Assembly: GCF_900155585.1 (NCBI RefSeq) | Contig: NZ_LT707418.1 | Coordinates: forward strand, 434,001 to 498,000 | Reading direction: 5' to 3' | Length of the DNA stretch: 64,000 nt | Origin: Aedoeadaptatus urinae | Lineage (GTDB): Bacteria; Bacillota; Clostridia; Tissierellales; Peptoniphilaceae | Part shown: piece after piece, positions 7,733 to 9,703 of the stretch | Numbering within the stretch: position 1 is the first letter of the stretch | Layout of the letters: every line of letters starts with the position of its first letter | The notes under the pieces: generated by a model | The model's input: only the letters and a program-made list of their open reading frames with translations | Database searches by the model: none | Told to the model about the DNA's origin: nothing | Translations under genes and position numbers: made by a program

Positions 7733-8791
7733 TTAACAGCAACAGCCGCCACTGCCTGCGCTTTCCGAATCCACCGAAGGCGAGGTGGAGCAGCCTTCGA
7801 AGGGGCCGAAGTGTCGGGAGCGATCGCCGATGACTTCGAAGTATTTGCCGAAGCGGGTTTGTTGAATCATGGCACAGGTGTTGCCGCAAACCGAGGCGGG
7901 CAGGTCCTTTTCGAAATGGTGGTGATCGTCCAGGTCAAAGGCAAATTCGTTGCCGACGATGCCGCCTTTGTAAATAATAAATTGGCCGTATTGTTCGCAA
8001 ATGTCTTCCAGAAATTCGGGCAACTTCATGGCGCGAATGGTGCGGGAGGTAAAGCCGATATTGCCGGTTAATTTTTCAATTTCCGGATTGTCCACGGCCG
8101 CTTTGGAAGAAGACATGTAGCGGAAATCCTCCCAGCCCACTTTGCGCATGAGCCGGCGGAAATCTTCCACATACATGGCGCCGCCGATGCATTCGCCGCG
8201 TAGGACGGGGTGATCTTCCAATTCCTTCGGCATGCGGCGATCGGCGAAAATGTCCGAGAAGTAGAGTTCGCCGCCTTTTTTCAGCACGCGGTAGATTTCG
8301 CCGAACACCGCTTCTTTGTAGGGGGACAGATTGATGACGCAGTTGGAAATAACCACATCGACGCTTTCGTCTTCGATTCCGGCGGATTTTAAATCTTCGA
8401 TATAACCCTTGACGAAGGTGACGTTCGATTCCTTGTAGCCGAATTTTTTCGCCATTTCGTCTTGGTGGGCTTTGGCGATGGCCAATTGATCGTCGTTCAT
8501 GTCCAGGCCGATGACCTTGCCCTTTTCGCCCACGAGCTTGGAAACCATGTACACGTCGAGGCCCGTGCCGCAACCTAAGTCCAAGACGGTGCAGCCTTCC
8601 AAAGCCGGCGGAATGGGCGAACCGCAGCCGTAGAAACGGAGAATGATTTCGTCGGGAATTTGTTCTCTGATCACTTGCAAGTGTTCCGGCATATTGTCCA
8701 GGGCGCAGGAGCAAATATTGGTTTCCATTTGACCTTCTTTTTCGCCGGTGACTTCCGAATAATATTTTTTAACTTCTTCGCGAATATCCAT
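7733..8791 (-). CDS. arsM: Arsenite S-adenosylmethionine methyltransferase
   Basis: A 352-residue class I methyltransferase that methylates As(III) to mono-, di- and trimethyl arsenicals. The SAM motif DLGCGTGLD is at about residues 71-79. Four cysteines sit in the family's conserved contexts: SCALDNMPEH (about 29), FYGCGSP (56), ISNCVINL (151) and GECIGG (201). The C-terminal ArsM extension is present, and the protein ends GSGGCCC. The start at 8791 follows AAAGGAG with good spacing; an upstream in-frame methionine would overlap the preceding gene and has no such site. The gene lies 11 bp after the aquaporin gene, in one operon. No ArsR, ArsB or ArsC is adjacent. The tri-cysteine tail is unusual. 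Confidence 0.93.
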   Translation of the reverse strand: MDIREEVKKYYSEVTGEKEGQMETNICSCALDNMPEHLQVIREQIPDEIILRFYGCGSPIPPALEGCTVLDLGCGTGLDVYMVSKLVGEKGKVIGLDMNDDQLAIAKAHQDEMAKKFGYKESNVTFVKGYIEDLKSAGIEDESVDVVISNCVINLSPYKEAVFGEIYRVLKKGGELYFSDIFADRRMPKELEDHPVLRGECIGGAMYVEDFRRLMRKVGWEDFRYMSSSKAAVDNPEIEKLTGNIGFTSRTIRAMKLPEFLEDICEQYGQFIIYKGGIVGNEFAFDLDDHHHFEKDLPASVCGNTCAMIQQTRFGKYFEVIGDRSRHFGPFEGCSTSPSVDSESAGSGGCCC

Positions 8792-8802
8792 GTTACTCTC
8801 CT

Positions 8803-9624
8803 TTAGCAGCAGCAATTATTGTTCGATTTCGATTGTTGTAAGGGTTCGATGACTTTCGTAAAGACCAAAGCCGCCAGGGCGCTTCCCACACAGGGACCCA
8901 GGGTGTAGACCAAAAGAACCTGCGGTGAAAAGGCTACGGCTTTAAAGCCGACCAGGTAGCCGACGATGCGGGGGCCCAAGTCACGGGCGGGATTTAAGCC
9001 CGCATTGGTCATGGGGCCGATGGTGCCGATAAGGCAAGAGATGGTGAGCCCGATAAACAAGGGGAAAAGATCGTCGCTGGGACGACCCAGATTGCAGCCT
9101 TCGGTCATGGAGAAAATAATAATGACCAGAATAAAGACGCCGAGACCTTCCGCAAAAGCGGCGACGCCGGGGCTGATGACGCCTTTCGCCGTGTTGGGGA
9201 AGACTTCGCACCAGATACTCGAGGGGCCGCTGGCCACGCTCATGGTCAAATTGTCGGCGACGAGGGCCGCTTGCACACTGTCTTTAAAGAAAATCCACAG
9301 GGCCAGGCCGGCTAAGAGGGCGCCGATCATTTGGCCGCAAAAATACACTGGAAAGTTTTTCCACGCGCAACGGCCGCTGAGGCACATGGCCAAGGTCACC
9401 GCAGGATTAAAGTGAGCCGCGGATAAGTTTCTCGTGGCGTAAATGGCGATGGCGATGGCGAGCCCCCAAATCATACCTACCTGAAAGGGACCGGTGTGGG
9501 CGCCGTACAAGGTTGCCGTGGCCACGGCACCGATGCCGAAAAAACACATAAGAAAAGTGCCGATGACCTCGCCCATCATCGAGTGCATCCACACTTTAGG
9601 CTCCGACTTAACTACGTCGTTCAT
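8803..9624 (-). CDS. MIP-family channel (aquaglyceroporin type), probable metalloid channel
   Basis: A 273-residue major intrinsic protein with both signature loops: HFNPAVT (NPA at about 73-75) and GLNPARD (NPA at about 211-213). The aspartate after the second NPAR is typical of glycerol facilitators, which also conduct uncharged As(OH)3. Six membrane helices are readable. It is the first gene of a two-gene operon with arsM, resembling AqpS-type channels of arsenic islands that let arsenite pass the membrane. The protein ends NNNCCC, a tri-cysteine tail like that of its neighbour but with different codons. The start follows AAAGGAGGAATT. Simple glycerol uptake is possible but less likely in this context. 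Confidence 0.88.
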   Translation of the reverse strand: MNDVVKSEPKVWMHSMMGEVIGTFLMCFFGIGAVATATLYGAHTGPFQVGMIWGLAIAIAIYATRNLSAAHFNPAVTLAMCLSGRCAWKNFPVYFCGQMIGALLAGLALWIFFKDSVQAALVADNLTMSVASGPSSIWCEVFPNTAKGVISPGVAAFAEGLGVFILVIIIFSMTEGCNLGRPSDDLFPLFIGLTISCLIGTIGPMTNAGLNPARDLGPRIVGYLVGFKAVAFSPQVLLVYTLGPCVGSALAALVFTKVIEPLQQSKSNNNCCC

Positions 9625-9658
9625 AATTCCTCCTTTTGGATAATATATTTATTATCAG

Positions 9659-9703
9659 TTTATCCTCTGGAGTAAATTCCTGTCAATGAACATAGATATC
9701 TAT
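9659..9703 (-). promoter_or_regulatory. Promoter and candidate operator of the arsenic operon
   Basis: The minus strand has TTGACA (9681-9686) and a weaker GATAAA (9659-9664) 16 bp further on. A perfect palindrome ATAGATATCTAT (9692-9703) lies just upstream of the -35 box. A second inverted repeat, with arms GATAAT and ATTATC, lies at 9639-9656 between promoter and start codon. These look like binding sites for a regulator that is not encoded next door. Confidence 0.5.

Follow-up and report, generated by a model that had tools for sequence, protein, structure and literature searches.

What does it mean that two adjacent genes, one for a methyltransferase and one for a membrane channel, both end in three cysteines? 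We addressed this question for an aquaglyceroporin (MIP) gene and an arsM gene that lie next to each other in a 64,000-nucleotide stretch of the Aedoeadaptatus urinae genome (contig NZ_LT707418.1, positions 434,001 to 498,000; the whole stretch is called the window). An earlier note on this DNA had reported that ArsM ends GSGGCCC and the neighbouring aquaglyceroporin NNNCCC, and translation of both frames confirmed this. The note was also right that the cysteine codons (TGT TGC TGT versus TGC TGC TGC) and the preceding residues differ; because of this the two ends are not copies of each other, and a copied 3' end was ruled out. We found that, in the sequences examined, the CC(C) tip of ArsM is a widespread conserved part of this enzyme family and that the MIP cysteine tail is a recurring feature of one channel subfamily. 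The reading we prefer, with a probability of about 0.55, is that the pair forms a small arsenic operon in an anaerobe closely related to Aedoeadaptatus (Peptoniphilus) pacaensis, in which each tail would be a flexible thiolate arm. The arm of ArsM would serve its own active site, and that of the channel would bind metalloid at the cytosolic mouth of the pore. Statements credited below to a PMC number refer to excerpts of that paper.

The window ArsM is a predicted AS3MT-type As(III) S-adenosylmethionine methyltransferase. Phmmer matched it to 5evj (4.5e-99), and a Foldseek search with its predicted model returned 5evj, 4fs8 and 8xt7 (CrArsM, CmArsM and human AS3MT) among the best 13 rows, with E values of 4e-38 to 2e-34, so that it has the ArsM/AS3MT fold. 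The catalytic cysteines of CmArsM are at positions 44, 72, 174 and 224 (PMC5552862). The last three align with Cys56, Cys151 and Cys201 of the window protein, and its cysteine pair 27/29 lies near position 44. The protein scored below the cut-off of NCBIfam NF008823 (185.8 versus 263 bits). This lowers only its membership in that subfamily, because the model has 272 positions and describes the short form. It also scored below the cut-off for arsenosugar ArsM, NF038099 (110.7 versus 400 bits).

The ArsM tail was found throughout the relatives of the window enzyme. The family search covered 130 genomes, 80 of which gave some match and 14 a long ArsM (E 1e-132 or lower). In alignment A2 all 13 rows end in CC, ten of them in CCC or CCCC. 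Since the ArsM of a further genome, G045, whose gene is split, ends GGGCC, a CC or CCC end is present in 14 of 14 long-ArsM genomes of the family. The linker before the tip varies in length and residues while the tip is constant, and the tail cysteine codons change synonymously among relatives.

A wider sample took in Coriobacteriia, other Bacillota, Acinetobacter, Nitrobacter, Cupriavidus and a Staphylococcus sp., together with arsenosugar-type ArsM from a cyanobacterium and a Bacillota genome. At least two cysteines occur in the last eight residues of 26 of 29 unfused ArsM proteins, where 0.78 would be expected from each protein's composition. The chain ends in CC or longer in 23 of the 29 and in CCC or longer in 13, and ends of CC or longer are spread over Bacillota, Coriobacteriia, Pseudomonadota and a cyanobacterium (arsenosugar ArsM). 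The count of 29 includes L014 (only the part after an in-frame TAA), L011 (start codon unsure) and L148 (N-terminal frame unclear). It omits the split L015, L071 (cut by a contig end), the third open ArsM frame of L068, three fusions, the short forms L085-L088, the in-frame TGA rows L016-L031 and the near-duplicates L003 and L010. A plasmid search with ArsM gave 132 records, 5 of them at 80% coverage or more; four of those 5 (L147, L177, L178 and L179; H63 was left out) were taken in along with L148 (78% coverage). No ArsM turned up in a scan of viral contigs, which gave two weak partial MIPs; a search of phages yielded one partial match.

The three tailless unfused proteins (L065, L068b and L076) form one clade and are without the catalytic triad: L065 keeps one of the three cysteines, L068b and L076 none. 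All three catalytic cysteines are present in 25 of the 26 tailed ArsM; the remaining one, L148, has two, its N-terminal frame being unclear.

We scanned the whole 1.82 Mb A. urinae genome for TGY TGY TGY followed by TRR. Of the 8 sites found, 6 have a true stop: two are the ends of arsM and the MIP gene, and the remaining four close open frames of 16, 27, 40 and 43 codons. Real proteins of less than 44 residues aside, arsM and its neighbour are thus the sole gene-size frames of this genome that end in CCC, and they are adjacent. The equivalent scan of the sister genome G005 found 7 sites, of which 6 carry a true stop; two belong to the counterpart MIP-arsM pair and four end frames of 10, 19, 27 and 40 codons. 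In six further genomes, for which part of the sites were checked, the longest non-ArsM frame had 67 codons (L100, in G004), followed by frames of 59 and 57. A chance origin of the ArsM tail was ruled out by the genome scan together with the 26 of 29 against 0.78 expected.

For ArsM we envisage that the CCC forms the end of a flexible thiol arm that would capture trivalent arsenic and feed it to the enzyme's own Cys56/Cys151/Cys201 site. Alternatively the arm might re-reduce that site between methyl transfers. With 22 flexible residues, the arm should be able to span the distance to the active site, be it that of its own subunit or of an adjacent one. Thiol-arsenite chemistry of the tails is plausible. 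That either tail binds arsenic, that the tail takes part in catalysis and what the channel carries are all points that we infer.

If the ArsM tail were mainly a redox shuttle, its thiols would reduce an active-site disulfide or an As(V) intermediate after each methyl transfer, and the enzyme would be less dependent on external thioredoxin or glutathione. The model for human AS3MT needs a reductant and passes through disulfides, and human Cys368 and Cys369 form a disulfide (PMC4211708). The absence of the tail where the catalytic cysteines are absent would fit such a shuttle as well. However, a dithiol shuttle does not need three cysteines, and the Discussion and the other excerpts of PMC4211708 used here give the Cys368-369 pair no function. 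We regard the shuttle as a tentative possibility.

Returning to the preferred reading, in which the channel carries an arm of its own, we found that the window MIP scores 131 bits against PF00230 (cut-off 25) and that the nearest fold to its model is GlpF (8y8x and 1fx8, template modelling scores of 0.83-0.84 normalised by query). It has the MIP fold and two NPA motifs with NPARD. It scored below the NCBIfam TIGR00861 cut-off (161.4 versus 171.25 bits). A phmmer alignment to GlpF, mapped by eye, places W53, I199, A208 and R214 in the selectivity filter. This would be the W-I-A-R filter of plant NIP-I channels, which pass arsenite. In the model the last helix runs to residue 267 and residues 269-273 have a predicted local distance difference test (pLDDT) score below 50; by aquaporin topology the CCC is presumably on the cytosolic side.

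The MIP subfamily was collected with A1 and A3, and 24 subfamily rows and 7 controls entered the comparison. Fourteen of the 24 have at least two cysteines after the last membrane helix, in the forms CCC, CC, CSCN, CGCN, CGCGG, CACE, CSCK, CDC, CSCG, CEC and others. The tail is scattered over the MIP tree and 10 of the 24 are without it; strict CCC at the very end was seen only in the window and its sister species. Among 25 glycerol-type MIPs of the family (a label of our own), none has two cysteines in the last 25 residues. The 24 rows omit L077 (broken), L076 and L081 (partial), L078-L080, L082, L175, L214 and L215 (other MIPs or partial) and the repeats L003, L004 and L010. When plasmids were searched with the MIP, every match was below 60% identity. 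As a separate observation, the MIP frame L077:5935-6375 runs from its first NPA into the second NPAR as if the middle had been deleted, and it ends TCCCK. Cysteine-tailed MIPs L151, L152, L153, L172 and L174 were also seen in clusters with MtaA/UroD, corrinoid, MtaB-like, GcvH-like, lipoyl synthase and CobW genes.

We propose that As(OH)3, and perhaps methylarsenite too, passes through the aquaglyceroporin passively. The CCC of the channel would then be a thiol cluster in its own right, a trait at the level of the subfamily, which lies on the cytosolic side at the mouth of the pore and binds metalloid in passage. A regulatory sensor is a different way to use the same cluster: metalloid bound to the cytosolic thiols would close or open the pore. 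The cluster directly follows the last membrane helix, and L007, L010 (from the Finegoldia magna DSM 20470 record) and L004 (from Peptoniphilus nemausensis) have another CCC or CC cluster at their N-terminal end, which we take to be cytosolic too. Both observations would suit a sensor. Since the tail is disordered in the model and missing in 10 of 24 subfamily members, we consider a sensor doubtful.

The earlier note had further proposed that arsenic is handed from the channel to ArsM through the two tails. What stands of this picture is that an aquaglyceroporin and an ArsM, probably encoded in the same operon, have non-homologous cysteine tails; the handover was not supported. Neither tail is peculiar to the window operon, and both recur in relatives. 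An intact partner MIP is present in 5 of the 14 long-ArsM genomes. The other nine are without one: eight have none at all and G002 has a remnant of some 29 residues. The ArsM tail is retained in each of these nine. In the Coriobacteriia L067, L069, L070 and L072, an ArsM ending in CC or CCC stands beside a tail-less MIP. Tailed MIPs without ArsM nearby are found in L142-L145 (about 4 to 8 kb per side) and in L172 and L174 (1.5 kb per side).

The co-occurrence check that the note had suggested gave the same answer. Among the 24 subfamily MIPs, tailed members are 8 with and 6 without an arsM neighbour and tail-less members 6 with and 4 without (Fisher p = 1), so that the MIP tail is not associated with arsM. 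Two neighbours counted as arsM (L065 and L071) are ArsM-like proteins without the catalytic cysteines, and a hand recount with intact-triad neighbours only gave 7:7 for tailed and 5:5 for tail-less MIPs. An independent-pairs test had too few contrasts to decide. Equal frequency of tails on MIPs outside arsenic operons, which the note had named as evidence against its proposal, is what we found for cysteine pairs but not for strict terminal CCC. As each tail is found without the other, the two are probably separate putative arsenic-binding devices and not a matched hand-over pair. The remnant in G002 (L005, G002:C12:1105-1191) comprises the last 29 or so MIP codons, with a tail that is no longer CCC, and lies directly 5' of an intact arsM that ends in CC.

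Under a direct hand-over, the channel tail would trap entering arsenite and deliver it to that of ArsM through thiol exchange. The genes are adjacent, and they are the only two gene-size frames of the genome with this end. Aquaglyceroporin-arsenate reductase fusions are a precedent for the coupling of an arsenic enzyme to a channel (PMC9775063), and ArsD works as an arsenic metallochaperone through three cysteines (PMC4562236). Nevertheless the tails occur independently and unassociated across the MIP subfamily, and G002 lost the channel yet its ArsM retains CC. We therefore consider a hand-over very unlikely. Most improbable is that the tails are neutral, as short cysteine runs at floppy ends or TGC trinucleotide slippage: the MIP codons form a perfect triplet repeat and the MIP tail is scattered over the tree, but the ArsM counts (26 of 29 against 0.78), its mixed TGT/TGC codons, the constant tip on a variable linker and the lack of any other gene-size frame ending in CCC oppose it, and for the ArsM tail neutrality is unlikely.

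Several observations weigh against separate arsenic-binding arms. Two sampled ArsM tails end CGC and one CY, not CC. Among the 26 tailed rows, L014 may represent a dead gene, with a TAA in frame close to its start. The tailless clade represents one evolutionary event, so the link between loss of tail and loss of triad is a single observation. Three ArsM-ArsS fusions (L068, L070 and L089) retain the triad without the tail and without Cys302; the tail is therefore not a requirement of all ArsM-like enzymes. Both the C-terminal domain and the tail are missing from four short ArsM (L085-L088), which carry a cysteine cluster such as CCSCGSSCC near the N terminus, at about the position of CmArsM Cys44. 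Around the tailed, arsM-less MIPs of L143, L144, L145, L172 and L174 we found genes for MtaA/UroD-type methyltransferases and corrinoid proteins as well as MtaB-like, GcvH-like and CobW-type genes, some of these names being profile-tested and others given by resemblance. MIP tails beside such methanol/corrinoid-type genes mean that the MIP ligand need not be arsenic. The context of the tailed, arsM-less L142 had no clear theme. Lastly, the C-terminal domain of AS3MT has been described as not conserved and without specific function (PMC5398495).

A bolder picture, which we offer as speculation, is that anaerobes have a MIP subfamily in which a cytosolic, metalloid-binding thiol clamp (CCC, CC or CxC, at times with another at the N terminus) makes a one-way arsenic trap or a self-gated channel out of a passive pore, that the analogous conserved arm of ArsM loads the active site, and that thiol arms at flexible ends are a general, as yet unnamed device of arsenic proteins.

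The features of the locus are collected below. The MIP gene comes first and arsM second, with 11 nucleotides from the MIP stop to the arsM ATG, and the two likely form one operon. A same-strand FtsH-like gene lies 5' of the MIP gene and an opposite-strand gene for an M16C-like peptidase lies 3' of arsM (both named from sequence). With these neighbours the MIP-arsM pair is a two-gene unit without arsR.

Features of the MIP-arsM locus, in window coordinates
Feature	Position	Strand	Remark
arsM gene	7733..8791	-	352 residues; second of the pair; ends ...SAGSGGCCC
MIP (aquaglyceroporin) gene	8803..9624	-	273 residues; first of the pair; ends ...KSNNNCCC
Terminal CCC codons of ArsM (residues 350-352)	7736..7744	-	TGT TGC TGT, then TAA
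C-terminal CCC codons of MIP (residues 271-273)	8806..8814	-	TGC TGC TGC, then TAA
Disordered C-terminal arm of ArsM (residues 331-352)	7736..7801	-	pLDDT <50 for 331-352; ends GSGGCCC
Cys201 codon (RGECIGG)	8189..8191	-	by alignment, counterpart of CmArsM Cys224
Cys151 codon (ISNCVIN)	8339..8341	-	by alignment, counterpart of CmArsM Cys174
Cys56 codon (FYGCGSP)	8624..8626	-	by alignment, counterpart of CmArsM Cys72
Likely ribosome-binding site AGGAGAG of arsM	8796..8802	-	read from sequence; listed as sharing the final base of the MIP stop region
Promoter-like site TTGACA-18-TAAACT, 5' of the MIP gene	9657..9686	-	10 of 12 matches; consensus match only

An inverted repeat, GATAATAAATATATTATC, adjoins the promoter-like site of the MIP gene at window positions 9639-9656. 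The idea that this repeat (GATAATA-4-TATTATC) is the operator for a distant ArsR was dropped, as it is not conserved in the near relative L062. This relative, from the named collection, is Aedoeadaptatus pacaensis (Peptoniphilus pacaensis, Peptoniphilaceae, under NCBI taxonomy), its MIP being 99% and its ArsM 98% identical. A search of the A. urinae genome for ACR3 at E 0.001 found none, ArsB and ArsP not being searched; ACR3 is present in 8 of 13 related genomes searched, including the sister G005. With that same limit, the MIP-arsM pair may be the main arsenic system here.

The direction of transport deserves comment. Aquaglyceroporins also pass methylarsonous acid (PMC1440775), and anaerobic arsenic methylation has been proposed to serve microbial warfare through its toxic product (PMC11653729). 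Export of the product is therefore as plausible as import of arsenite.

Other arsenic genes seen along the way are recorded here. The halves of the split G045 arsM, L015 (G045:C1:989790-990632; residues 74-351) and G045:C1:1121952-1122182 (residues 2-78), lie about 131 kb apart on the same strand, by rearrangement or assembly error. L014 (G019:C1:398000-399058) retains its CCC end despite the in-frame TAA, L156 has CCC near both ends of its ArsM, and L011, whose start codon is unsure, has NKCCCSKD in frame upstream. The fusions (L068:3413-5596, L070:3528-5591 and L089:487-2511) come from Eggerthellaceae and one Bacillota genome, and their partner is a radical SAM protein named by its resemblance to ArsS. 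The short ArsM homologues L016-L031 have one in-frame TGA each, which suggests selenocysteine-containing ArsM; NCBIfam holds such families. ArsR-like repressors with a CAC motif and cysteine clusters near their C-terminal ends (named from sequence) lie directly 5' of arsM in L155 (L155:6607-6954), L156 (L156:6527-6916) and L157 (L157:4174-4524). An ArsD-like protein of the sister G005, its family likewise named from sequence, ends GCCGNNSSCC.

In print the C-terminal domain of ArsM/AS3MT appears as unconserved and without specific function (PMC5398495) or as a domain of unknown function (PMC10199152). Across several phyla, among the sequences examined, we find its extreme tip to be conserved, and absent both from proteins that lack the catalytic cysteines and from ArsM-ArsS fusions. 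Humans have a relative of this enzyme, and a neglected part of it thus becomes simply testable. If the thiol-tailed MIPs are true metalloid binders, they would represent a novel means of giving direction or self-gating to an open pore.

ArsM itself, MIPs in ars operons and fusions of arsenic channels to enzymes are already known. Our literature search, which did not extend to subscription papers, found no description of a terminal cysteine tail in bacterial ArsM or in ars-linked MIPs. CmArsM, CrArsM and human AS3MT have the fold and catalytic cysteines of the window ArsM in common with it, but in the matches to the five solved ArsM/AS3MT sequences the aligned part reaches query residue 345 at most and does not take in the tail. 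The nearest known counterpart of the tail is Cys368-Cys369 of human AS3MT, a C-terminal cysteine pair in ...AAGGCCGTKK that is likewise preceded by GG (PMC4211708); in the window ArsM, in contrast, the cluster is the very end of the chain. ArsD also has terminal vicinal cysteine pairs (Cys112-113 and Cys119-120 in E. coli). However, it is a small chaperone in which the N-terminal Cys12/13/18, and not the C-terminal pairs, are tied to chaperone function (PMC4562236).

In the aquaglyceroporin-arsenate reductase fusions an arsenic enzyme is coupled to an aquaglyceroporin (PMC9775063, PMC12838822), whereas the pair studied here consists of two separate genes with a methylase in place of the reductase, and any coupling between them is hypothetical. 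Eighteen MIPs have been reported in ars operons without another transporter (PMC4435449). As regards such an AqpS-type context, the window MIP is paired with arsM, the pair has no arsR, and a search of the genome for ACR3 found none, ArsB and ArsP not being searched. It shares the MIP fold, two NPA motifs and NPARD with GlpF and AqpS-type MIPs, and differs from the glycerol-type MIPs (0 of 25) in its cytosolic C-terminal cysteine cluster; the AqpS sequence itself was not in this comparison. Two arsenosugar-type ArsM, L141 and L178, end GGGCCC and GGGCC, like the window ArsM tip. L141 (the same gene as L149) scores 524.6 bits against the NF038099 cut-off of 400 and adjoins a CC-tailed MIP, and L178 is annotated as arsenosugar-type. 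Mercuric reductase and thioredoxin reductase, whose fold and reaction are unrelated to those of ArsM, offer an analogy: in these enzymes a flexible C-terminal cysteine pair delivers metal or electrons to the active site.

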